This document shows positions 9,622 through 41,259 of a stretch of 64,000 nt of DNA, one piece after another. The DNA comes from Anaerolineae bacterium (GTDB taxonomy: Bacteria > Chloroflexota > Anaerolineae > Aggregatilineales > Phototrophicaceae): positions 1-64,000 of the forward strand of contig JAHDWN010000015.1 of assembly GCA_023382675.1 (NCBI GenBank), given 5' to 3'. Each line of letters opens with the position of its first letter. The first letter of the stretch is position 1. The notes below the pieces were generated by a model, which had not been told where the DNA came from, made no database searches, and saw nothing but the letters and a program-made list of their open reading frames with translations. Position numbers and translations under genes: made by a program.

Positions 9622-9904
9622 TGTGGCATTCCTTGCGCCGCATAAACCAATTCTGAGATGTCCGGGTTGTTCACTGGATCTACGTGCAGGGCCAATATAC
9701 CTTCTGACTGCATACAATCTGGCATGTGCGCTTTGCGCCTGTCGGGAATTTCACCCACTTTCAAAACCAATATGGAAGCTGAAAGCCATCTGCCGATGGT
9801 CACTGAACAATTTCGCCCTTTTCTGCAATAAAGGCCCATGGTATAAGAGATCAAGACCTGCTGTGTACGTGATGCTGCGCCAACGTTTTGAGCCAACACC
9901 CAAA

Positions 9905-10060
9905 GAACGGGAGTTGCTGTTTGGCGGCAAGGTGATAGGCTTGCGTAGCCAAGACCCCATCGCCAGGTGAACTCCCACCTGCTAACGCAGGTTCAAAACT
10001 CGCACACACGGCACAGCAGGTGGATTTATCAATAGCAGCGTCCCACATGGGGCGCTGTCT
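9905..10060 (+). ncRNA. candidate structured RNA or 5' leader (family unknown)
   Basis: The 556 bases between katA and the next gene hold no credible coding sequence, but this part folds densely. An extended stem is built from GGGAGTT (9909-9915) with AACTCCC (9970-9976), TGGCG (9922-9926) with CGCCA (9961-9965), GGT with ACC, and GGCT with AGCC closing a 5-base loop, separated by small internal loops. Next, ACCTGC (9977-9982) can pair with either GCAGGT (9987-9992) or, as CCACCTGCT (9975-9983), with AGCAGGTGG (10015-10023), which are mutually exclusive. A hairpin CAGCGTCCC/GGGGCGCTG at 10036-10057 comes last, 30 bases before the membrane-protein ATG. I do not recognise a known riboswitch. 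The strand is assumed from the downstream gene. Confidence 0.38.
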
Positions 10061-21338: not shown

Positions 21339-21375
21339 GAGTTCAGTTGAATATGACAACGACGTTGAACTGAAC

Positions 21376-21640
21376 GAGTACACATCAAGGCGAGGCCCAG
21401 AGAGTTGCCGGAAGCTGGGAAGGTGACGCCGGCGCAGATGTGGAATGGCTCAGGGAGTTGCAGACGCGAACACGGGCACGCCGTACAGTAGCTTCTGCCG
21501 GAGATGCCACCGTTATCATGGCAAAGGGTATAGGCGTTCGCGTCCGTACCTGAAAAGAGCGTTCCTGCGCCCTGGCGCGGGATCAGCAAGGTGGCACCAC
21601 GGGAACCCCTCTCGTCCTTGATTGGCGAAGGGGTTTTTTG
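21376..21640 (+). promoter_or_regulatory. T-box leader sensing uncharged tRNA-Trp
   Basis: All main T-box parts are visible in order: AGTA at the stem I base (21377-21380), the AGAGAG loop at about 21399, the apical GCTGG, a specifier TGG at 21441-21443 followed by A, and the T-box sequence AAGGTGGCACCACGGG at 21588-21603. The acceptor-binding bulge UGGC (21592-21595) can pair with GCCA, matching the G73 discriminator usual in bacterial tRNA-Trp. CGTCCTT (21613-21619) is the 3' partner of the antiterminator, and an intrinsic terminator overlaps it. Uncharged tRNA-Trp should favour the antiterminator and switch on the trp genes, including trpS. Whether both TGGs near 21441 could act as specifier was considered; the first, followed by A, fits best. 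Confidence 0.92.
21604..21639 (+). terminator. intrinsic terminator of the trp T-box
   Basis: AACCCCT (21604-21610) pairs with AGGGGTT (21629-21635), followed by an unbroken T-tract to 21639. It overlaps the antiterminator's 3' strand at 21613-21619, giving the two exclusive folds of a transcriptional T-box. Confidence 0.88.
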
Positions 21641-28102: not shown

Positions 28103-29325
28103 CCCTGGACAAAAATCAGGCCCAACAGTCTGTATTTCCCGATGAGCGTGGCTACTTCGGCGATTTCGGCGGGCGCTTCGTGCCGGAAACGCTCATGCCC
28201 GCGCTCGATGAACTCACCGTCGCTTACCGTGAAGCCATGGCGGACGAGGCATTTCGCGCGCGTCTGGCGCATCTTCAGGCGACGTACACCGGACGCCCGA
28301 CACCGGTTACTTACGCCGCTCGCCTCAGCGAACAGCTCGGCGGCGCGCGCATCTACCTTAAGCGTGAAGACCTGGCGCATACCGGCGCGCACAAGATCAA
28401 CAACGCTTTGGGGCAGGCACTGCTGGCACAGCGCATGGGCAAACAGCGGGTGATTGCCGAAACCGGCGCGGGGCAGCACGGCGTTGCCAGCGCGACGGCG
28501 GCGGCGCTCCTCGGCCTGGAATGCCACGTCTACATGGGCACCGTCGATATGGCGCGCCAGCAGCCGAACGTGTTTCGGATGCGGCTGATGGGTGCGGAAG
28601 TCATTCCGGTCGAGAGCGGCAGCAAGACGCTCAAAGATGCCATCAACGAGGCGATTCGCGATTGGGTGACGAACGTGCGCACGACATTCTATCTGCTGGG
28701 ATCGGCGCTCGGCCCGCATCCCTACCCGATGATGGTGCGCGACTTCCAGAGCGTCATCGGCATCGAAGCGCGCCAGCAGATGCTCGATCAGGTTGGGCGG
28801 CTGCCGGATGTTTGCGTCGCCTGTGTCGGCGGTGGCAGCAATTCTATCGGCCTGTTCCATGCCTTCCGTGATGATCATGACGTGGAATTGATCGGTGTCG
28901 AGGCGGGGGGACATGGCATCGCCAGTCACGAGCACGCTGCCCGCTTTGCCGACCCGGACATCGGGCGACCGGGGGTGCTGCACGGCACGTTCTCGTTCGT
29001 CATGCAGGATGATGACGGGCAGATCATGAACACCCACAGCATCAGCGCCGGGTTGGATTATCCGTCGGTCGGGCCGGAGCACGCCTATCTGCGCCAGACC
29101 GAGCGCGCCTTCTACACGTCGGCGACCGATGACGAGGCGCTCGATGCGTTGCAAACGCTCAGCAAGTTAGAGGGCATCATCCCGGCGCTGGAAAGCGCGC
29201 ACGCAGTGGCCGAGGCGATCAAGCGCGCGCCGACGATGCCCAAAGACTCGATCATGCTGATCAATTTGTCCGGACGCGGCGATAAAGACCTGGACACCGT
29301 CATTCATGCCCTGGAGGAACGATGA
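28099..29325 (+). CDS. trpB: tryptophan synthase beta chain
   Basis: A 408-residue PLP enzyme of the TrpB1 type. [19 protein letters not shown] opens the protein, the PLP lysine is in [33 protein letters not shown] is the carboxylate/phosphate region, and [17 protein letters not shown] the glycine loop; [17 protein letters not shown] follows. It condenses indole with serine. One unusual gene separates it from trpA, where direct contact is usual. Length and residues are normal. Confidence 0.97.
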
Positions 29326-30083
29326 GCGTCGCGCTCACGTCTACCTGGCAGCCGAACGGTGAGCTGCCGCGCTTACAGCGCTTTCACTTGCGCCTGATGC
29401 GTCTATTCGAGAGCATCACCATTGTCTTGCCACCGACCGCAGACGAAGCACTCGTGGCAGCGCTCAACGCGCTTGACGATCTGCATCCGGTTGTCACGCA
29501 AACGTGGCCGCGCGGGCGGCACGTCGCCCTTGACGAAGCGCTCAAGCGACCAGCGACACACATGCTCTACTGCGATCTCGACCGGTTGATCCGCTGGGTC
29601 GAACTGTATCCCGACGAGTTGGCGGCGACCGTCGAGCATGTCGAAACCTGCGATTGCCTGGTGATCGGGCGCACGGAGCGCGCGCTGATGACGCACCCAC
29701 GCAGTCTGCGTGAAACCGAGCAGATGGCCAACGACGTTTTCGCGCACGTGACCGGGCTGCCCTACGATATCTGCGTGGCGACACGCGGCTTCAGTCATGC
29801 AGCGGCGGTGCGCGTGCTGGCAGAAAGCCTGGTCGAGAATTCACTCGGTGTCGATGGGGAGTGGGTCTACATCTGCCAGCGCGCGGAATTGAAGCTCGAC
29901 TTCGTGGCTGTCGCGGGCATGGACTGGGAGACCGCCGATCAACGACTCGACCAGGCCGCCGACGCTGAGACGCAGCGCCGTGTTGCCGAAGCCTTCGATG
30001 GTGAAGTCAGCAACTGGGCGGGACGTGTGCGCGTGGCGCGCGCCATCATTGGCGGGCTGCTTGGCATCGCCGGTAAATCATGA
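29322..30083 (+). CDS. uncharacterised protein with DxD motif, possible GT-A fold
   Basis: A 253-residue soluble protein whose ATG overlaps the trpB stop (ATGA), so it is translationally coupled between trpB and trp[22 protein letters not shown] reads like a first beta-alpha unit, and [21 protein letters not shown] places a DxD (Asp85, Asp87) after a hydrophobic strand, as in nucleotide-sugar glycosyltransferases. [28 protein letters not shown] follows. There is no membrane segment or signal peptide. No link to tryptophan synthesis is evident. The glycosyltransferase idea is a shape argument only. Confidence 0.6.
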
Positions 30084-30117: not shown

Positions 30118-30918
30118 ATGCCAGACGTCATCACACACGGCTTGGCAGCTATTGCCGCCATGTTCGCGCAGACGAAAACGGAAGGGCGCTCGGCCTTCCT
30201 GCCGTATTTCCCGATTGGCTATCCAGACTATGAGCAGTCGATTGCCATCATCGAGTCAATGGCGCAGGCGGGTGTCGATGGCTTCGAGATCGGCATCCCG
30301 TTCAGCGATCCGCTGGCGGATGGCCCGGTCATCCAGGCGGCGACGCAGCGAGCGCTGGAGCAGGGCACGACGCTGCGCAAATGCCTGGCGGCGGTGCGTG
30401 AGCTGCGCGCCCGCGGAGTCGATCAGCCGATGCTGCTGATGGGCTACGTCAACCCGTTCATGCGCTATGGCGTTGAGGCGTTCGTCAAGGACGCCAGGGC
30501 TGCCGGGGCGGACGGCCTCATCGTGCCTGATCTGCCGCCGGAAGAGTCAGCACGCTTTGCCCAAGCCTGCCGCAATCAAGGACTGGCGCTGGTCTTTATG
30601 CTTGCCCCGACCAGCAGCAAAGAACGGATCGCCCTGGTTGCGCAACAGGCCACGGGCTTCATCTATGTCGTCTCACTGACGGGTATTACCGGCGCGCGCA
30701 GAGATCTCCCGCCGGATCTTCAGGATTTCATTACGCGCGTGCGTGCGGAGTCCGGCGCTACGCCGCTGGTGCTTGGTTTCGGCATCAGCCAACCGGAGCA
30801 TGTTGCCATGGTCGGCAAACTGGTCGATGGCTACATCGTCGGCAGTGCGTTGGTGCGCGCTGGCGGCGAGGGCGTGGCGGCGGCACGTGCCCTGGCGGAG
30901 CAGCTTTTGCCCAGTTGA
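30118..30918 (+). CDS. trpA: tryptophan synthase alpha chain
   Basis: A 266-residue TIM barrel: FLPYFPIGYPDYEQS, GVDGFEIGIPFSDPLADGPVIQAATQRAL (catalytic Glu and Asp), LLMGYVNPFMRYG, GLIVPDLPPEES, FIYVVSLTGITGAR and GFGISQPEH. It splits indole-glycerol phosphate to indole. The frame is open far upstream, but ATG 30118 with GAGAGGTTG in front matches the family start. It closes the first half of the aromatic cluster; 28 bases later a new promoter begins. Confidence 0.96.
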   Translation: MPDVITHGLAAIAAMFAQTKTEGRSAFLPYFPIGYPDYEQSIAIIESMAQAGVDGFEIGIPFSDPLADGPVIQAATQRALEQGTTLRKCLAAVRELRARGVDQPMLLMGYVNPFMRYGVEAFVKDARAAGADGLIVPDLPPEESARFAQACRNQGLALVFMLAPTSSKERIALVAQQATGFIYVVSLTGITGARRDLPPDLQDFITRVRAESGATPLVLGFGISQPEHVAMVGKLVDGYIVGSALVRAGGEGVAAARALAEQLLPS

Positions 30919-30946
30919 CATCGCGAACCTGGTTGATCGCGTCTTT

Positions 30947-30975
30947 TTGACAGCCCCAACCGCGCGTGCTATCCT
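30947..30975 (+). promoter_or_regulatory. promoter of the aroH-aroQ half-operon
   Basis: TTGACA, a 17-base spacer and TATCCT, with predicted initiation near 30982, about 24 bases before the leader peptide start. Identical hexamers and spacing occur at the trp promoter (21310-21338). Confidence 0.75.
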
Positions 30976-31005
30976 TCTGCCACAAGCTTCTAAGGGAGAG
31001 TTGGC

Positions 31006-31095
31006 GTGTCTATTCAGGAGTGTTTCGGCGCTCACTTCGGGTTTTATTATTACCGCGCGATACCAGACTATCGGGGCGTTGGATGCCGCGTGTAG
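31006..31095 (+). CDS. 29-residue Phe/Tyr attenuation leader peptide
   Basis: A GTG start at 31006 with GGGAG 7 to 11 bases upstream opens a 29-codon frame ending in TAG at 31093. The centre reads HFGFYYYRAIPDY: seven of the 29 codons are Phe or Tyr, including three consecutive Tyr codons directly after a Phe codon. An intrinsic terminator follows 40 bases later, then the chorismate mutase and prephenate dehydrogenase genes. This is the layout of ribosome-mediated attenuation: stalling at Tyr/Phe codons when the charged tRNAs are scarce would let transcription continue. I could not define a clean antiterminator stem by eye; GGCGTTGGAT at 31075 partly pairs with ATCGAACGGC before the terminator. 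Confidence 0.82.
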   Translation: MSIQECFGAHFGFYYYRAIPDYRGVGCRV

Positions 31096-31135
31096 GGATG
31101 CCGAACTCCTAACCAGATCGAACGGCGAACCACAA

Positions 31136-31166
31136 GGCGCAGAGCAAAACGCTCCGCGCCTTTTTT
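31136..31166 (+). terminator. attenuator terminator before aroH
   Basis: GGCGCAGAGC (31136-31145) pairs with GCTCCGCGCC (31151-31160) with one A-C mismatch around AAAAC, followed by six Ts. It lies between the leader peptide and the aroH ribosome site (AGGAGGTGA at 31179), so it must be read through for the downstream genes. Confidence 0.9.
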
Positions 31167-31190
31167 ATTGTGCAGTCAGGAGGTGAGTCT

Positions 31191-31601
31191 ATGTGGATGG
31201 TGCGCGGTGTGCGCGGCGCGACGACAGCGTCCGCCAACACGACCGACGTGATTGTGAGCGCGACACGCGAATTGCTCCAGACGATGATCGACACTAACGG
31301 CATTGACGAGGAACATGTCGCCAGCGTCATCTTCACGACCACACCCGACCTGAATGCAGGGTTTCCCGCGCAGGCTGCGCGCCTGGTGGGATGGCAGCAG
31401 ACGGCATTGTTGGGCGCTCAGGAAATCGACTGCCCGGACGGCGTGCCGATGTGCATCCGTGTGCTCATCCACTGGAATACGACGAAGCCGCTGGCAGCGA
31501 TTCGCCATGTCTACATGCATGGGGCGGAACGCCTGCGCCCCGATCTCTACCCGACGAACAAGATCGTGCTCGACAACGCAGACGGACACGTAGGAGGGTG
31601 A
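31191..31601 (+). CDS. aroH: AroH-type monofunctional chorismate mutase
   Basis: A 136-residue protein of the trimeric Bacillus AroH type rather than the helical AroQ type: MVRGVRGATTAS at the N-terminus with the active-site arginine, VASVIFTTTPDLNAGFPAQAARLVGW, QEIDCPDGVPMCIRVLIHW, and IRHVYMHGAERLRPDL near the end, with the Arg and Tyr that bind chorismate. It makes prephenate from chorismate. ATG 31191 was chosen over an earlier in-frame ATG, because AGGAGGTGA stands 5 bases before it. First structural gene after the attenuator. Confidence 0.95.
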   Translation: MWMVRGVRGATTASANTTDVIVSATRELLQTMIDTNGIDEEHVASVIFTTTPDLNAGFPAQAARLVGWQQTALLGAQEIDCPDGVPMCIRVLIHWNTTKPLAAIRHVYMHGAERLRPDLYPTNKIVLDNADGHVGG

Positions 31602-31608
31602 GAAGGCT

Positions 31609-32499
31609 ATGACGGCGACATCGGGTTTTCGTGCGCGTCATCTGGTTATCGTTGGCCTGGGGCTGATGGGTGGCTCGGCGGCGCTGGCGCTCAGGGACTA
31701 TGCGGATCGAATCACCGGCATCGATAGCAGCGCGCCTACGCGCGAATACGCCCTGCGCGAACGCATCGTCGATCATGCGACGGATGATCTCAAGGCGGGG
31801 GTCGCGGATGCCGATGTCGTGGTGCTGGCAGCGCCGGTGCGCGTCATCATCCAGATTGTGCAGGGGCGCATCGGCGCTTATCTGCGCTCAAACACCTTCC
31901 TGATCGATCTTGGCAGCACTAAAGAAGATATCTGTAGCGCCATGGGGCAGTTACCGATTGGCATTCAGGCGGTCGGCGGGCATCCGATGACCGGCAAAGA
32001 AGTCCATGGCATCGAGGCCAGTGACCCGGCGCTCTATCACCAGCGTCCGTTCGTTCTCTGCCCAACGCGCCGCACAACACCTGCGACTCGGCTGCGCTCA
32101 CTCGCTTTTGTCGATGCGCTCGGCGCACAGCCGATCGAGATGGACGCGCATCGCCACGACCGCACGGTCGCCGCGATCAGCCATCTGCCGTATCTTTTGA
32201 GCGCGGCGCTGGTCGCCACCGTCAAGCAGGAAGGCGACCGTGACGAGGCTGTGTGGGAGCTTGCCGCCGGAGGTTTTCGCGATACGTCGCGGCTGGCGGC
32301 CAGCAATCTCGACATGATGGGCGACATTCTGAGCACGAATACCCAGGCGGTGGCTGCGCTTCTGGCGCATTTTCGCGCCCAGTTGGCGCTCCTCGAAGCG
32401 GCGCTGATCGACCGCGACGCCGAGCAACTCGCCGAGCGGCTGCGCCCGGTGCGTGCGGCACGCCTGACATGGGCACACAAATACGAGAGGAAACCGTAA
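31609..32499 (+). CDS. tyrA: prephenate dehydrogenase (TyrA family)
   Basis: A 296-residue NAD(P)-dependent enzyme. The nucleotide site is LVIVGLGLMGGSAALAL; DVVVLAAPVRVI, DLGSTKEDICSAM and VGGHPMTGKEVHGIEASDPALYHQRPFVL follow (catalytic His in GGHPM). IEMDAHRHDRTVAAISHLPYLLSAAL is the dimerisation-helix signature. It oxidises prephenate to 4-hydroxyphenylpyruvate for tyrosine; arogenate use is possible. It has no ACT domain, so feedback may depend on the leader peptide. It begins 7 bases after aroH. Confidence 0.93.
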   Translation: MTATSGFRARHLVIVGLGLMGGSAALALRDYADRITGIDSSAPTREYALRERIVDHATDDLKAGVADADVVVLAAPVRVIIQIVQGRIGAYLRSNTFLIDLGSTKEDICSAMGQLPIGIQAVGGHPMTGKEVHGIEASDPALYHQRPFVLCPTRRTTPATRLRSLAFVDALGAQPIEMDAHRHDRTVAAISHLPYLLSAALVATVKQEGDRDEAVWELAAGGFRDTSRLAASNLDMMGDILSTNTQAVAALLAHFRAQLALLEAALIDRDAEQLAERLRPVRAARLTWAHKYERKP

Positions 32500-32500
32500 C

Positions 32501-33811
32501 ATGGCAGTCGATTACTTTGCAGTCAGGCCCGGAAATCCCTTACGTGGCGCATCACGGGTTCCCGGTGACAAATCGATCTCGCATCGTGCCGTCATGTTTG
32601 GTGCGCTGGCCCAGGGCGCGACACACATTCGCGATTGGCTGCCTGCCGGTGATACGGAGGCGTCTCTGGCGGCGATGCGAGCGCTTGGCGTCCCTGTAGA
32701 TCGCCTGAGCGCGACTGAATTGATCGTGCGTGGCGGTGAGCTTCGGCAGCCAGACGCGCCGCTCAATCTCGTCAACGCTGGGACGGGCATCCGGCTGCTG
32801 GCAGGTATTATGGTCGGGCAACCGTTTCCGAGCGTGCTCGATGGCAGCGAGCAGCTCCGCCGCCGCCCGATGAAGCGCATCATTGAGCCACTGACCGAGA
32901 TGGGCGCAAACATCCACGGGATCGATCACAAAGCGCCGCTGACTATCGAACCGGCGCGCCTGCACGGCATTCACTACACGCTGCCGGTCGCGAGCGCCCA
33001 GGTCAAGAGCGCGATCCTGCTCGCGGGACTGTTCGCTATCGGTGAAACGGTTGTCACCGAGCCGGGGCCGGGACGCGATCACACCGAGCGGATGCTGGCG
33101 GCGATGGGGGTTGATCTCACCGTCGATGGTGCGGTTGTCACGCTCAGGCCCGGCCAGCCGCTGCGCCCGATGGATTTCACTGTGCCGGGCGACTTTTCAT
33201 CGGCGGCCTTCCTGATCGTCGCTGCGCTGCTCATCCCTGGCAGCGACATCACCCTGACCAACATCAGCCTCAACCCGACGCGCACGGGGCTGCTGGCTGT
33301 CCTGCGCGAGATGGGCGCGGACATCGCCGTCGAAGAAACCGGCCTTCAGGCAGGCGATCCGGTCGGCACGATCCGGGTGCGTCACAGCGCTTTGCACGCG
33401 GTCGCGGTCGGCGGCGATGTCGTCGTCCGCATGATCGACGAGTTCCCGATCTTCATGGTGGCGGCGCTGGCTGCCGAGGGTAAGACGACGGTACGTGACG
33501 CTGAGGAACTCCGCGTCAAAGAGACCGACCGCCTGCGTGTTATGACTGCCGAACTGACGCGGATGGGCGCGCGGATTCAGGAATATGACGACGGCTTTTC
33601 GCTCGACGGGCCGCAAACGCTGCGCGGCGCACACGTCGATGGTCACGACGATCATCGCCTGTCGATGAGTCTGGTCGTCGCCGGGCTGACCGCGGATGGC
33701 GATACTCGTGTTGACGATGCGCGCTGTGCTTCAGACTCGTTTCCGGGGTACGCTGAGACTCTGGTGGCATTGGGGGCGGAGGTTGCAGTACGAAAGCCAG
33801 ACGATGGATAA
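32501..33811 (+). CDS. aroA: 3-phosphoshikimate 1-carboxyvinyltransferase (EPSP synthase)
   Basis: A 436-residue protein of two inverse alpha/beta domains: RVPGDKSISHRAVMFGALAQG, LNLVNAGTGIRLLAGIM, LDGSEQLRRRPMKRIIEPL, LPVASAQVKSAILLAGLFA, DFSSAAFLIVAALLIPGS, MIDEFPIFMVAALAAEGKT, LRVKETDRLRVM and DGHDDHRLSMSL. It adds enolpyruvate to shikimate 3-phosphate. The NAGTGIR loop has the usual form NAGT-x-x-R. Its start is 1 base after the tyrA stop. Confidence 0.97.
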   Translation: MAVDYFAVRPGNPLRGASRVPGDKSISHRAVMFGALAQGATHIRDWLPAGDTEASLAAMRALGVPVDRLSATELIVRGGELRQPDAPLNLVNAGTGIRLLAGIMVGQPFPSVLDGSEQLRRRPMKRIIEPLTEMGANIHGIDHKAPLTIEPARLHGIHYTLPVASAQVKSAILLAGLFAIGETVVTEPGPGRDHTERMLAAMGVDLTVDGAVVTLRPGQPLRPMDFTVPGDFSSAAFLIVAALLIPGSDITLTNISLNPTRTGLLAVLREMGADIAVEETGLQAGDPVGTIRVRHSALHAVAVGGDVVVRMIDEFPIFMVAALAAEGKTTVRDAEELRVKETDRLRVMTAELTRMGARIQEYDDGFSLDGPQTLRGAHVDGHDDHRLSMSLVVAGLTADGDTRVDDARCASDSFPGYAETLVALGAEVAVRKPDDG

Positions 33812-33851
33812 TCGCTGTTTTACATCATGCGGCCTTTGAGGGGGGATGCGT

Positions 33852-34670
33852 ATGAGTATTCATCGGGTAGGCGTTATTGGCTGGCCGATAGAGCACAGCC
33901 TGAGTCCGTTGATGCACAACGCGGCTTTTGCCGCGCTCGGCATGAAGGACTGGCAGTACGACAGGATGGCGATTCCGCCCGATGTTTTGGGGCATAGTAT
34001 CAAGGAACTGCGCAACCATGATTTCGTCGGCATCAACGTGACCGTGCCCCACAAAGAGGCGGTCATGCGCTACGTCCAGGCCGACAATCTGGCTCAGGTA
34101 GTGGGCGCGGTCAACACCATCGACTTTCGCACTGGGATCGGCACGAACACGGACGTGAGTGGCTTTATCGACGATCTGGCTGCTCATGGCGTGACAATCA
34201 AAGGCGCGCGCGTGGTTGTGTTGGGGGCGGGCGGCGCGGCGCGCGCGGTCGTCTATGGCCTGGCGCAGAACGGCGCGGAAGTTGCCGTGGTCAATCGTTC
34301 GCTGGAACGAGCGCTCGATCTGGCGCGCACGCTGCTGGTGCCATTTCGGCTCATGACTCTGACCGAAGCCGCAGACTGGGGGGCGTCGCTGATCGTCAAT
34401 TGCACGTCGGCAGGCTTGCAGCCGAATGTCAGTGTCACGCCCTGGCATGAGGACGTGCCGTTTCCCAAAGGCGTGACGCTCTATGACACGATTTATCGCC
34501 CGGCGCGTACCAGTCTCATGCGCCAGGCGGAGGCTGCAAGCGGCCAGGCAATCAACGGCACGGGTATGTTGGTGCGCCAGGGGGCGGCTGCCTTCAAGCT
34601 CTGGACGGGTGTTGAGCCACCGGTCGAAGTCATGATGGATGCGCTGCTCGATGCTTTGGGAGGTCTCTGA
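33852..34670 (+). CDS. aroE: shikimate dehydrogenase
   Basis: A 272-residue protein: GVIGWPIEHSLSPLMHNAAFAALGM binds shikimate, GINVTVPHKEAVMRYV carries the catalytic lysine, GAVNTID and GTNTDVSGF follow, then the NADP site VVVLGAGGAARAVVYGL and NRSLERA. GMLVRQGAAAFKLWTGV closes the chain. ATG 33852 is preferred over ATG 33846, as the purine-rich GAGGGGGG touches the latter but is well spaced from the former. It reduces dehydroshikimate to shikimate. Confidence 0.93.
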   Translation: MSIHRVGVIGWPIEHSLSPLMHNAAFAALGMKDWQYDRMAIPPDVLGHSIKELRNHDFVGINVTVPHKEAVMRYVQADNLAQVVGAVNTIDFRTGIGTNTDVSGFIDDLAAHGVTIKGARVVVLGAGGAARAVVYGLAQNGAEVAVVNRSLERALDLARTLLVPFRLMTLTEAADWGASLIVNCTSAGLQPNVSVTPWHEDVPFPKGVTLYDTIYRPARTSLMRQAEAASGQAINGTGMLVRQGAAAFKLWTGVEPPVEVMMDALLDALGGL

Positions 34671-35216: not shown

Positions 35217-36395
35217 ATGATCCGTTTCCTCACTGCCGGCGAATCGCACGGCCCAGAACTGACCGCCATCATCGAAGGCCTGCCCGCCGGGCTGCCGCTG
35301 ACGCCCGAAGACATCAACCCGGATCTGGCGCGCCGTCAGGAGGGCTACGGCAGCGGCGGACGGATGCAGATCGAGCGTGATCAGGCGCGGATTACGTCCG
35401 GTGTCGCGGCGGGCAAAACGACCGGCGCGCCGATTGCGCTGACGGTCGTCAACCGCGACTTCAAGAACTGGCGCGAAAAAGACATCACGCCGATGACGAC
35501 GCCGCGCCCCGGCCATGCCGATCTGACCGGCGCGATCAAATATGGCTATCGCGATCTCCGCGTGGCGCTCGAACGGGCCAGCGCTCGTGAAACGACCATG
35601 CGCGTCGCCGTCGGCGCGATTTGCCGCCGCCTGCTGGCTGAGTTTGGCATTCGCATCGGCGGCTACGTCGTCCAGATTGGCGATGCAATCGCGCACATTC
35701 CCGATGATCTCGGCTACGAAGATCGCTTCGCGCGCGCGGAGGCCAGTGATGTGCGCTGCCCGCTGCCGGATGCTTCGGCGCAGATGCACGCGGTCATTCA
35801 CCAGGCGAAGATCGACAAGGATACGCTCGGCGGTGTGATCGAGGTCGTGGCGCTCGGTGTGCCTCCCGGTCTCGGATCGCACGTGCATTATGACCGCCGC
35901 CTCGACGGACGCATCGTCGCGGCCATGGTCAGCGTTCACGCCATGAAAGGCGCGGAAATCGGCCCGGCGTTCGCCAATGCCGGCAAGCGCGGTTCGGAAG
36001 TTCACGACGAGATTTCCCTGCGCGACGGCGGCGACATCTACCGCATGTCCAATCGGGCGGGCGGGCTGGAAGGCGGCATCACCACTGGCGAGCCGATTGT
36101 CGCCCGCGTCGCCATGAAACCGATCTCGACCGTCATGAAGGCGCTCGGCTCGGTCAATCTCGCGACGGGTGAGGCGGAGCGGACGACCTACGAGCGCAGC
36201 GACCACTGCGCAACGCCGCGCGCGGTGCCGATTCTGGAAGCGATGATGGCTTTCGTTCTCGCCGAGGCGCTGCTCGAAAAGATCGGTGGCGACAGCATCG
36301 ATGAAATGCGCCCCCGCTTTGATGGACTGCGGCGCGCGCGGCTGGAAGATCTGCCGATGGACAATCTGGAGTGGCGCTTTGGCTATCCAGAGTGA
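35217..36395 (+). CDS. aroC: chorismate synthase
   Basis: A 392-residue FMN-dependent enzyme: FLTAGESHGPELTAIIEGLPAG at the start, RRQEGYGSGGRMQIERDQ, GVAAGKTTGAPIAL, RPGHADLTGAIKYGYRDLRVALERASARETTMRVAVGAI (family signatures 1 and 2), NRAGGLEGGITTGEPI and RSDHCATPRAVPILEAM. It eliminates phosphate from EPSP to form chorismate, the branch point feeding TrpE and AroH. A 71-base gap with no strong promoter precedes it; AAAGGTC is the ribosome site. Confidence 0.97.
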   Translation: MIRFLTAGESHGPELTAIIEGLPAGLPLTPEDINPDLARRQEGYGSGGRMQIERDQARITSGVAAGKTTGAPIALTVVNRDFKNWREKDITPMTTPRPGHADLTGAIKYGYRDLRVALERASARETTMRVAVGAICRRLLAEFGIRIGGYVVQIGDAIAHIPDDLGYEDRFARAEASDVRCPLPDASAQMHAVIHQAKIDKDTLGGVIEVVALGVPPGLGSHVHYDRRLDGRIVAAMVSVHAMKGAEIGPAFANAGKRGSEVHDEISLRDGGDIYRMSNRAGGLEGGITTGEPIVARVAMKPISTVMKALGSVNLATGEAERTTYERSDHCATPRAVPILEAMMAFVLAEALLEKIGGDSIDEMRPRFDGLRRARLEDLPMDNLEWRFGYPE

Positions 36396-36402
36396 CCGGG
36401 GT

Positions 36403-36921
36403 GTGAGCAGAGCAGCACATCGTTTTCAGGCCATCGTGCTCACTGGCTTCATGGGCACCGGGAAATCCACGGTTGGCCAGGCGGTAGCGGCGCGTCTCGG
36501 CTGGCGCTTCGTTGATAGCGACGCCGAAATCGTGACGCGCGCCGGGCTGAGCATCCCGGAGATCTTCGCCCAGCAGGGCGAGCCTGCGTTTCGCCGCATC
36601 GAGCGCGAGGTCGTCTGCGCGTTGGTGGACGGGCAGCAGCTTGTCATCGCGACCGGTGGTGGCGCTTTGATAGATGAAGAGACGCGCGCCTACGCGCTGG
36701 CTCATGCGCTCGCCATCTGCCTGACCGCGACGCCAGAAGCGATTGCGGCGCGGCTGGTGGGTGATACGGAGCGGCCGCTGCTCAAGGGTGATTGGCGCGT
36801 GCTGCTGGAGCGCCGCCGCCCGATCTATGAATCGTTTGCGCATCAGCTTGATACGACCGGCAAAGCGCCGGAAGCGTTGGTGGAGGAGGTGCTGGCGATA
36901 TGGCAGAACGCATTGACGTAA
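36403..36921 (+). CDS. aroK: shikimate kinase
   Basis: A 172-residue P-loop kinase: IVLTGFMGTGKSTVGQAVAARLGWRFVDSD holds the Walker A and shikimate-binding Asp, FRRIEREVV gives the second Arg, IATGGGALI the GGG loop, and LVGDTERPLLKGD the lid arginine. It phosphorylates shikimate at C3. The frame is open far upstream inside aroC; GTG 36403, 7 bases after the aroC stop and with CGGGG before it, gives the standard N-terminus. The end overlaps aroB by 22 bases. Confidence 0.92.
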   Translation: MSRAAHRFQAIVLTGFMGTGKSTVGQAVAARLGWRFVDSDAEIVTRAGLSIPEIFAQQGEPAFRRIEREVVCALVDGQQLVIATGGGALIDEETRAYALAHALAICLTATPEAIAARLVGDTERPLLKGDWRVLLERRRPIYESFAHQLDTTGKAPEALVEEVLAIWQNALT

Positions 36922-37955
36922 CCGCGCCCGGCGGCACCTATCCGATCCTGATCGAGCGCGGCCTCCTGCCGGACATGGGGACTCGCGCGGGGGCGTTCGG
37001 TCTTGATCGGCGCGTGGCCGTTATCACCAACGAGACGCTCGCGCCGCTGTATGGCGAGGCGCTGTGTGATGCGCTGCCAGATGCGCATTTGATCGTGATG
37101 CCGGATGGTGAGCAGTACAAAAATCTAAACACCGTCGCCAACCTGTATCAAGAGCTGGTGCGCGCGCGGTTGGATCGCAAGAGTGCGGTTGTTGCGCTGG
37201 GCGGTGGGGTGGTTGGCGACACAGCCGGGTTTGCGGCGGCGACCTACATGCGTGGCGTCCGGCTCGTACAGATTCCCACCAGCTTGCTGGCGATGGTCGA
37301 CTCAAGTGTCGGCGGCAAAGTCGGCGTCGATCTGCCGGAAGGTAAAAACCTCGTCGGCGCATTCAAGCAGCCTGAGCTTGTCTTGATCGATCCGAATGTG
37401 CTCTACACCCTCCCGCCGCGTGAATGGCGCTGCGGCCTGGGTGAGGTGATCAAGCACGGCCTGCTGGCTGATGCTCACCTGTTGGAGATGATCTCTCCCA
37501 GCCAATCGACAACGCCGGATACCGGCCAGCTTGTCCGGCGCGCGGTGCAGGTGAAAGTCGATCTCGTCCAGCAAGACCCCTACGAAGACAACGTGCGCGC
37601 CTATCTCAATCTGGGGCACACGTTTGCGCACGCCATCGAGCAGGTGACGCATTATCAGCGACCACACGGCGAAGCGGTCGCTACCGGTCTGGTTGCAGCC
37701 GCCTGGTTGTCTGCGCGCCTGGGATTGTGCGATACCGATCTGATCGGGCTGGTCGAGGCCAAGGTCGCCAGTGTCGGGCTGCCCATACGATTGAACGGAC
37801 TGAAGCCTGAACAACTGTGGGCGGCGATGGCAACCGACAAGAAATGGCAGGCAGGCAATGCGCGCTTTGTGTTGCTCAAGGACGTAGGTCAGCCTACAAT
37901 CATTGAAGCTGTTGAAAAAGACGATGTTATTGCCATTCTTGAGGGTATCCAATGA
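36900..37955 (+). CDS. aroB: 3-dehydroquinate synthase
   Basis: A 351-residue NAD- and metal-dependent enzyme: [71 protein letters not shown] (the NAD and substrate region), [13 protein letters not shown] (metal Glu and Lys), [13 protein letters not shown] (metal His) and [10 protein letters not shown]. It makes dehydroquinate from DAHP. DAHP synthase itself is absent from the window, so the entry step must lie elsewhere. The overlap with aroK implies coupling. Confidence 0.96.
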
Positions 37956-38410
37956 CCCGACATATTCTCTTGTTACACGGCCCGAATCTCAATTTGCTCG
38001 GCACGCGCGAGCCGGAAATCTACGGCAAGTTCACGCTTGAGCAGATTAACGCCATCGCGGCGCAGCACGCCTCCAAGCACAACACCGAACTGCGCGCCGA
38101 TCAATCCAACCATGAGGGCGATCTGATCGACATTTTGCACGTCGCGCGCAACTGGGCGGATGGTATCGTCTTTAATCCCGGCGCGTTCACGCATACATCC
38201 GTCGCCCTGCGCGATGCGGTGAGTGGTATCAGCCTGCCCGTCGTCGAAGTTCACCTGTCGAACATCCATGCCCGCGAGACGTTCCGGCAAACCTCGCTGC
38301 TCGCGCCGGTTTGCGTCGGCCAGATCAGCGGTTTCGGCTGGCGCAGCTATCTGCTTGGCATTGACGCGCTGCTGGGGCATTTGGGCGCATTTCGCGATCC
38401 CTCGTTGTGA
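37952..38410 (+). CDS. aroQ: type II 3-dehydroquinate dehydratase
   Basis: A 152-residue flavodoxin-like dodecameric enzyme: [20 protein letters not shown] holds the active-site Arg and Tyr, [15 protein letters not shown] follows, then [17 protein letters not shown] with the catalytic histidine and [16 protein letters not shown]. It dehydrates dehydroquinate. The ATGA overlap with aroB shows coupling. With it, all shikimate steps from aroB to aroC are present in this cluster. Confidence 0.95.
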
Positions 38411-39864: not shown

Positions 39865-41259
39865 TCACTTCGAGATGTGCTTGTGGAGGCGCTTAAGGGC
39901 AAGCTCCGTGTCACGCACGTTGATAACCATCGAGATGCCGCAGCGTGCCGGGCTGTAATCGATTGCCAGGATCGGTATGTTCGCCAGCGCGTCCATAATT
40001 TGAACGCAGCCCGCCAGTGAGATGGCATCCTGAGCGCCGATGACAGTGACAATGGTGACTGGCTCGACCTGCCACTCGGAAAGGCCTTGCAAGTGATCTT
40101 CCAGGGCAGAATTAAGCGTATGTATGGCTTCATGCCCGGCAGCGATGGGCACGACGAAACAGACGAGTGTGTGGCTCGGCGATTGTGTCGTGATCGTGAC
40201 CTCGACTTGTGTGCCGATAGTGTCGAAGAAGACGCTGTCTACCAACGTAGTGATATTCGCCAGCGATCCGCCGGAGTTTGTCTTCAAAGCAATAGCGCCG
40301 ATAGAAGTCACCGCTTGCAAGCCATCCTTCAATTCGGGCGTACTGTTATGTACGAGTGTGCCTGGCTGCTGTGGCGCGAACAGATTGCGTACTCGCAGAG
40401 AAATGTTCTGCCCGCGCATCAATAGAAGCATACGCGGGTGGAGCACACGAGTGCCGAAAAAGGCCATCTCGGTCGCTTCGATGATGGAGAGTTGATGGAT
40501 TACCCGCGCATCCTTGACCTCGTGCGGATCGGCAGACATCACACCGTTCACGTGCGTCCAGATCCAGATCTCGGTTGCGTTTGCGCACACGCCGAGAATC
40601 GCGGCTGTGTAATCGCTGCCGCCGCGTCCCAGGGTGGTTGGTTTGCCGGTCGTCGTCCCGCCGATGAAGCCGGTCAAGACCGGCAGAATACCGCGCTCCA
40701 GCATCGGCAGGAGCTGGTTTTCCATCCGTTCGCGCGTCGCTTCCATGTCTGGGCGTGCGTTGGCGCGCACATTGTCGGTGATGATCAGATCCGTCGTATC
40801 CAACGCGACACTGCGCAAGTCGCTGTGCCGCAGCAGCGCTGCCACGATCCGCGCGGTGAGACGCTCGCCGACGCCGATAATCGCGTCGAATAGATCGGTT
40901 GCCGCCTGTTTCTGGGCCGCATTGCTCAGCGACTCGCACATTGCCAGCAGGTCGGATAGCAGGGTGTCAATATTCGTCTGAAGAATGCTGCGCTCGGTTT
41001 GATCTAAGGGCAGGCTTTCTGCCAGCGATAGATGACGCTGCCGCAGATTGCTGACGATGCGGCGGTAGCCCCGTTGCTGCCCGAATTGCGCCAGATGGGC
41101 TGCGTCGATCAATTGATCGGTGACGCCTTCCAAGGCAGAGACCACCAGCATCAAGCGATCCCAACGCTCACGCTCATACAGCACAATGCCGACAAGCTGC
41201 GTTAACCCTTCGGCTCGTGCTAGAGTAGAGCCGCCAAACTTCATGACTAACGTCCGCAT
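39865..41259 (-). CDS. aspartate kinase
   Basis: A 464-residue amino-acid kinase: VMKFGGSTLARAEGL at the N-terminus, VVSALEGVTDQLIDAA, GVGERLTARIVAALL, LTGFIGGTTTGKPTTLGRGGSDYTAAILG and IWTHVNGVMSADPHEVKDARVI. Two ACT domains fill residues 310-464 and would bind lysine or threonine. It makes aspartyl phosphate, the first step to Lys, Thr and Met. It is the ThrA/LysC3-like long form without a homoserine dehydrogenase part. Its stop lies 2 bases from the convergent glnA stop. A minus-strand TATAAT at 41324-41319 may be its -10. Confidence 0.93.
   Translation of the reverse strand: MRTLVMKFGGSTLARAEGLTQLVGIVLYERERWDRLMLVVSALEGVTDQLIDAAHLAQFGQQRGYRRIVSNLRQRHLSLAESLPLDQTERSILQTNIDTLLSDLLAMCESLSNAAQKQAATDLFDAIIGVGERLTARIVAALLRHSDLRSVALDTTDLIITDNVRANARPDMEATRERMENQLLPMLERGILPVLTGFIGGTTTGKPTTLGRGGSDYTAAILGVCANATEIWIWTHVNGVMSADPHEVKDARVIHQLSIIEATEMAFFGTRVLHPRMLLLMRGQNISLRVRNLFAPQQPGTLVHNSTPELKDGLQAVTSIGAIALKTNSGGSLANITTLVDSVFFDTIGTQVEVTITTQSPSHTLVCFVVPIAAGHEAIHTLNSALEDHLQGLSEWQVEPVTIVTVIGAQDAISLAGCVQIMDALANIPILAIDYSPARCGISMVINVRDTELALKRLHKHISK

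Follow-up and report, generated by a model that had tools for sequence, protein, structure and literature searches.

A predicted ribosome-mediated attenuator with mixed aromatic codons in front of aroH in Chloroflexota

In enteric bacteria, the pheA and pheST genes are preceded by leader attenuators (PheL and PheM) that combine Phe control codons, alternative RNA structures and a terminator. One leader can also respond to several amino acids of a single pathway: the thrL leader of E. coli senses Thr and Ile, and the ilv leaders sense Ile, Val and Leu. According to the available portions of PMC2965389, PMC9413887 and PMC1262725, leader-peptide attenuation has been described for Proteobacteria, Actinobacteria and some Firmicutes. 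The actinobacterial trp and leu attenuators represent classical attenuation outside Proteobacteria, and in the accessible text of the same source no conserved regulatory RNA structure is reported ahead of the Phe or Tyr operons of this phylum (PMC1262725). The His leaders of Firmicutes were found by genome comparison (PMC2965389, PMC9413887, available portions), and the available portion of PMC2965389 states that its authors knew of no earlier demonstration beyond Proteobacteria and Actinobacteria, ermC aside.

Here we analyze a locus of an Anaerolineae bacterium (phylum Chloroflexota) located in a stretch of 64,000 nucleotides, hereafter the window, and its counterparts in related genomes. 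We interpret it as a ribosome-mediated transcription attenuator, to which we assign a probability of about 0.87. A Phe/Tyr leader-peptide attenuator had been proposed in a preliminary description, and this proposal is now supported by conserved codon clusters, by the terminator and by a covarying antiterminator in relatives. The promoter match, ORF, codon run, terminator and gene order can be read from the DNA itself, and conservation and complementarity with covariation from its relatives. As in enteric pheA and pheST, a leader ORF rich in control codons, predicted alternative structures and a terminator precede chorismate-branch genes. The differences are that (i) the enteric leaders use Phe codons, whereas Tyr and Phe codons are found here, together with Trp in some relatives; (ii) the genes that follow are those for a monofunctional AroH and for either TyrA or DAHP synthase; and (iii) the covarying antiterminator involves the terminator loop and 3' arm, unlike the simple 2:3 pairing of enteric leaders, and no Rfam leader matches. 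The sensing of several amino acids of one pathway by one leader would be shared with thrL and ilv of E. coli, but the set is aromatic and the lineage is a different one. In contrast to what the accessible text of PMC1262725 reports for Actinobacteria, the attenuator does precede Tyr/Phe genes. Like the Firmicutes His leaders in the available portions of PMC2965389 and PMC9413887, it adds a further phylum and is a discovery of comparative genomics; unlike them, it concerns neither histidine nor Firmicutes. Among the titles and abstract openings that we covered, with most subscription literature outside that scope, we recognized no report of a leader-peptide attenuator in Chloroflexi/Chloroflexota. 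Nor did we recognize, within the same scope, a report of a combined Phe/Tyr(/Trp) leader, although a 2010 survey by Lopatovskaya and colleagues, cited in the available portion of PMC4833913, may mention either.

The locus is arranged, from 5' to 3' on the + strand, as a promoter match, a 29-codon leader ORF, an intrinsic terminator and the genes aroH-tyrA-aroA-aroE. The consensus promoter claimed earlier was recovered as TTGACA-17-TATCCT (30947-30975), in which a -35-like TTGACA (30947-30952) is followed by a 17-nt spacer and by TATCCT, preceded by TG and extending up to position 30975. It agrees with the sigma-70 consensus at 10 of 12 positions and is the only sigma-70-like match on either strand of 30700-31500, where 0.4 would be expected. 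Upstream sequence was sufficient in 127 leaders; a match of 10/12 or better is present in 54 of them, compared with 0.9% of mononucleotide shuffles. The leader ORF (VSIQECFGAHFGFYYYRAIPDYRGVGCRV; 31006-31095) has a GTG start and a TAG stop, with an in-frame TAA ahead of it (30991-30993), and GGGAG at 30994-30998 is its likely ribosome-binding site. It contains seven Phe/Tyr codons, starting at positions 31024, 31036, 31042, 31045, 31048, 31051 and 31069, so that the ORF, the ribosome site and the codon count are all as first described. Four of these codons form the putative control run Phe-Tyr-Tyr-Tyr (TTT TAT TAT TAC; 31042-31053), which is the sole match to TWYTWYTWYTWY, a pattern of four consecutive Phe/Tyr codons, on either strand of the 64 kb (expected count 0.14; at least one match in 13 of 100 shuffles). 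Thus, the leader is a short ORF whose clustered codons correspond to products of the pathway encoded downstream, and an ORF with aromatic codons is kept in relatives.

Between this ORF and the first structural gene lies an intrinsic terminator with a U-tract (31134-31166; AAGGCGCAGAGC-AAAAC-GCTCCGCGCCTT-TTTT), which bears out the earlier claim of a terminator after the leader. Its stem (31134-31145/31151-31162) contains one mismatch, A31141.C31155, and its predicted energy is -18.3 kcal/mol (z = -5.25 against shuffles). With this mismatch it was absent from the list of our first scanner; a scan that tolerated one mismatch found six strong hairpins on the + strand of the window, this terminator included. 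The U-tract is separated by 24 nt from the ATG of aroH at 31191, and a separate ribosome site for aroH, AGGAGGTGA, is found at 31178-31186. The chorismate mutase and prephenate dehydrogenase that had been named downstream are indeed there: aroH (AroH type; 31191-31601) reaches 135.6 bits with TIGR01796 (cut-off 82), and for tyrA (31609-32499) the best NCBIfam match, at 199.8 bits, lies under that model's cut-off. They are followed by aroA, for EPSP synthase (32501-33811; TIGR01356), aroE, for shikimate dehydrogenase (33846-34670; TIGR00507), an ORF resembling GNAT acetyltransferases and then aroC, aroK, aroB and aroQ (35217-38410, + strand), which are candidate members of the aroH transcript, if this extends so far. 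The products of aroH, aroA, aroE, aroC, aroB and aroQ exceed the curated NCBIfam cut-offs, and the best matches of tyrA and aroK fall short of them. The leader would govern these aro genes.

Conservation of the ORF and of its Phe/Tyr codons in relatives had been suggested as a check, and the arrangement passes it. aroH is present in 139 of the 154 genomes of the host order, and we analyzed 138 loci, the window's own included, leaving out the aroH match in G133 and the second one in G011. A terminator-like hairpin is found within 300 nt upstream of aroH in 131 of the 138 loci (in G068 it sits within trpA), and 118 of the 138 combine a terminator with a leader in which at least four of eight codons encode Phe, Tyr or Trp. 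Besides true absences, the loci outside the 118 comprise G068 and G037, two that are cut by contig ends (L070, L084), leaders with 3/8 aromatic codons, and three in which a leader is visible and the scan gives no terminator (L131, L101, L039); G068 and G037 were likewise omitted from the folding-switch, helix, swap and codon-mix counts. With a stricter threshold of at least five Phe/Tyr/Trp codons among eight consecutive codons of an ORF before the terminator, 98 of 130 loci are positive, whereas the reverse strand gives 1 of 130 and dinucleotide shuffling 22 of 2600; these 130 are the 131 hairpin loci minus L070, which has too little upstream sequence. A covariance model trained on 49 leaders has a match at E<=0.01 in 133 of the 154 order genomes, the 49 training members included. 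No leader was seen in four order members with readable upstream DNA, namely G068, which belongs to the same genus as the source of the window, G054, G076 and G093.

The leader is also found beyond the order. The phylum sample consisted of 220 aroH genomes besides G000 and G092; upstream DNA was examined in 88 of them, the 28 best-scoring and 60 chosen for spread, class members first. By a count made without shuffle control, the stricter cluster plus a terminator occurs in 26 of 32 loci of the same class and in 20 of 56 loci of other classes, one cluster counted outside the order (L149) being doubtful, with another cluster present there. Regardless of the terminator, 30 of the 32 same-class loci have a leader, L177 being left out because its match looks like another gene. 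In the other classes, many of the families sampled had no leader with a terminator. Separately, on a contig filed as Neomarinimicrobiota (L032, 124-453), aroH is preceded by a terminator and by a leader that includes six consecutive Tyr codons, an occurrence that may reflect a wider spread, transfer or misbinning.

What is kept in these leaders is the run of aromatic codons, its order being variable and Trp entering in some families; the peptide core FGFYYY, for which the preliminary description had proposed a test of conservation, is not. The mix was counted over the 12 codons up to and including the last aromatic one. In the window's family (f1) the averages are 3.3 for Tyr and 1.8 for Phe, and 2 of 82 leaders contain Trp; in family f2 they are 3.0 for Phe, 2.7 for Tyr and 1.6 for Trp, which is present in 11 of 13 leaders. 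The codon totals are TAT 266, TTT 194, TAC 157, TTC 87 and TGG 31. The gene that follows aroH is either tyrA or DAHP synthase; at the 48 loci outside family f1 it is DAHP synthase in 44, tyrA in two and not reached in two, as judged by similarity to the genes of the window's source genome. We considered whether Trp codons are tied to DAHP synthase as the next gene. Trp is present in 11/13 leaders of f2 and 6/11 of f7, but in only 1/5 of f3, 1/8 of f4 and 0/7 of f8, where DAHP synthase is next as well, and we therefore do not claim such a link. Aromatic leaders are also found apart from the aroH match, in front of DAHP synthase, in genomes G095, G147 and G148 (loci L251, L262 and L256); in each genome the DAHP synthase is above the NCBIfam cut-off, and in G148 (L256) a methyltransferase-like ORF lies between leader and gene.

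The variation of the aromatic run bears on how it might be read. TnaC is a nascent peptide that arrests the ribosome and thereby senses a metabolite, and the leader peptide described here could in principle act in the same manner, in place of codons that sense tRNA charging. Its shortness, the conserved aromatic run and the recurrence of some later residues, for example an Ile encoded by ATA, would agree with this. However, residue order and composition differ between families, and the CATA motif that follows the run is in frame 2 in 62 f1 loci but in frame 0 in 11 f2 loci, so that it looks conserved as RNA and not as peptide. That the order of Phe, Tyr and Trp, and the codons used, vary among relatives fits codon sensing, and we regard arrest by the peptide itself as improbable.

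A second alternative is that the terminator simply ends the trp operon, the short ORF being incidental. trpA does lie directly upstream, with its stop at 30918, as it does in many members of the family. Nonetheless, a promoter match separates trpA from the terminator, the clustering of aromatic codons greatly exceeds chance expectation, and outside the family trpA was seen in the examined stretch of only 2 of 48 loci, yet leaders and terminators occur there. This persistence indicates that the terminator belongs to the aro genes, and makes a trp terminator with a fortuitous ORF very unlikely. Similarly small is the chance that the leader ORF merely aids translation of aroH by reinitiation, a role proposed for short leader genes in the available portion of PMC4833913: the leader stop is 95 nt ahead of the aroH start, with the strong terminator in between, and aroH has its own ribosome site. 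Control of aroH by a T-box or another known riboswitch class, an idea to which the T-box before trpE in the source genome, in a cluster with trpS, lends some appeal, has a negligible probability, since a search of 13 aroH loci with Rfam at E<=1 gave no T-box in a leader and a single one elsewhere (L114, 240-551, on the opposite strand and away from the leader). The Rfam 15 covariance models matched neither the window's leader at the gathering score nor the 13 aroH leaders at E<=1, and known RNA families were therefore rejected for this leader.

Ribosome-mediated attenuation requires an antiterminator that excludes the terminator, and such exclusive pairs had been listed among the points to be checked. 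A covarying partner was found in relatives, and it consists of the terminator loop and 3' arm, which departs from a simple 2:3 pairing of enteric type. The predicted region 2 generally begins about 21 nt past the last aromatic codon; in the window (CGGGGCGUU; 31072-31080) it is complementary to the loop and upper 3' arm (AACGCUCCG; 31148-31156). A predicted 1:2-like hairpin, CGAUA/UAUCG (31058-31073), from a fold of 31042-31133, directly follows the Tyr run and overlaps the start of region 2; the folded segment itself folds no better than shuffles. All three elements are on the + strand.

Several lines of evidence support the pairing with the loop and 3' arm in relatives. First, in alignment A1, which holds 49 leaders hand-chosen from the 82 of family f1, 85.4% of the cells of this helix are paired, compared with at most 51.5% in slid controls and a mean of 82.7% in shuffles, none of 500 of which reached the native value. 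Second, a change from CG to UA occurs in 14 of the 49 leaders, and the covariation score is above all but 1 of 500 shuffles. Two other measures were within or below the shuffles, since most of the change is due to a single pair: double-sided changes number 2 (1.9 in shuffles), and every shuffle has more additional pair types than the native alignment. Third, across the whole order the native helix beats swaps between genera in 42 of 50 genera, with p = 7e-11 if genera are taken as independent, which they are not, so that more weight should be placed on the swap and slide comparisons. Helices with different letters illustrate this, as in GGTGTAGA/TCTACACC (G092), CAGATGT/ACATCTG (G078), TGAGGCGTTGA/TCAACGCCTCG (G035) and GGGCATGGC/GCTATGTCC (G145). 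The classical 2:3 pairing with the terminator 5' arm, our first model, failed the same test, the native pairing being better in 25 of 50 genera with no covariation, and it is weak for the window's own leader; this geometry, which is usual but which we do not hold to be defining, is not supported in the order as a whole. A second contact, between region 2 and the base of the 5' arm, is 92.2% paired in A1 and shows no covariation. Column 124 of A1, which belongs to the terminator stem, holds A in 45 of 49 leaders, and facing this A are C (21 leaders), G (9), A (9) and U (6); the A is therefore retained while its partner in the stem varies. Inside the order, family f4 departs from the pairing with loop and 3' arm, its best helix being on the 5' arm side in 8 of 8. 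Outside the order, some leaders keep the loop and 3' arm (GCCGTTG/CAACGGT) and others pair best with the 5' arm and loop, and the swap signal is weak (native 14.0, swapped 12.8). The region 2 duplex of the window itself is ordinary compared with shuffles (z = -1.3 for the whole hairpin, +0.8 for the 5' arm and loop only). On our best reading of these comparisons, the antiterminator appears unusual with respect to the textbook form, in that region 2 covaries with the terminator loop and 3' arm.

Folding suggests how the ribosome might act on this pairing. The helix, folding and swap counts are based on the 128 loci in which the last aromatic codon is 40-100 nt from the terminator. A good helix at the terminator apex is found in 93 of these, with region 2 inside the ORF in 86 of the 93, and inside it or at most 12 nt past the stop in 92. 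Because region 2 is mostly inside the ORF, a ribosome finishing the leader would cover it and a stalled ribosome would expose it. When the footprint of a stalled ribosome is removed in silico, mean pairing of the terminator over the 128 loci falls from 0.95 to 0.70, with a decrease of more than 0.3 in 39 loci and an equally large increase in one. The window's own leader is not among these 39. Its full-length minimum-energy fold contains the terminator with or without a stalled ribosome, and the antiterminator (31072-31080 x 31148-31156) is the optimal fold only for transcripts that end at about 31153-31156, which is equally the case in the free transcript. As this leader shows no ribosome-dependent switch, the ribosome step in the source genome is one that we infer.

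With this qualification, we propose the following scheme. RNA polymerase would start at about 30982, and a ribosome would translate the leader ORF. With charged Tyr-tRNA and Phe-tRNA plentiful, it would pass the Phe-Tyr-Tyr-Tyr codons and run through region 2 within the ORF; region 2 would be masked, the terminator at 31134-31166 would form, and transcription would stop ahead of aroH. With Tyr (or Phe) short, the ribosome would stall at 31042-31053 and leave region 2 free to pair with the emerging loop and upper 3' arm of the terminator, possibly with the second contact at the base of the 5' arm. Formation of the terminator would then fail, and aroH-tyrA and the following aro genes would be transcribed by read-through. 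The conserved leader and terminator thus indicate that the aro genes may be switched on when Phe/Tyr run short.

The aro leader is not the only candidate regulator of this kind. At the start of the trp genes, the window has a T-box (21356-21622) before trpE, in a cluster of trpE, a phosphatase-like ORF, trpG, trpS, trpD, trpC, trpF, trpB, an unnamed ORF and trpA; the unnamed ORF (29322-30083, 253 aa) has no NCBIfam match at E<=1e-30. A 6S RNA is located at 9852-10026 of the window. In the source genome, therefore, the Trp branch seems to be controlled by a T-box and the Tyr/Phe branch by the leader peptide. Elsewhere in this genome (L267, C7), the leader MKRLQFGTGMTMTMTTMCTKAHRGYFRMG, with the run TMTMTTM and then a terminator, precedes an aspartokinase homologue and is likely a Thr/Met attenuator. 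Thr/Met-rich leaders also precede aspartate kinase in six relatives (L252, L253, L254, L257, L259 and L260), and in L255 tyrS is preceded by a leader containing three Tyr codons and by a terminator. These Thr/Met and tyrS leaders are weaker matches of the aro covariance model and do not amount to a survey; the gene names were confirmed in the relatives. The window's own aspartokinase gene (39865-41259) has no visible leader and no nearby strong terminator in the hairpin scan. Upstream of DAHP synthase and pheA in the source genome no similar leader was seen by eye, the region upstream of DAHP synthase containing a run of N.

Compared with the taxa named in the available portions of PMC2965389, PMC9413887 and PMC1262725, what is new here is the presence of such leaders in many genera of another phylum, their mixed aromatic codons and an antiterminator that covaries with the loop and 3' arm. 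On balance, we lean toward the view that Chloroflexota have an old and widespread attenuator that reads several aromatic tRNAs (Tyr and Phe, with Trp in some families) and sets the entry into aromatic synthesis, that its antiterminator captures the terminator loop and 3' arm, and that classical attenuation is general in this phylum, as with Thr/Met for aspartokinase and Tyr for tyrS, beside T-boxes. The leaders provide many natural variants in which the control codons have changed along with the RNA pairs, and on which the working and drift of attenuators could be tested. They also suggest how one cell may split the chorismate branches, the Trp branch being assigned to a T-box and the Tyr/Phe branch to a leader peptide.
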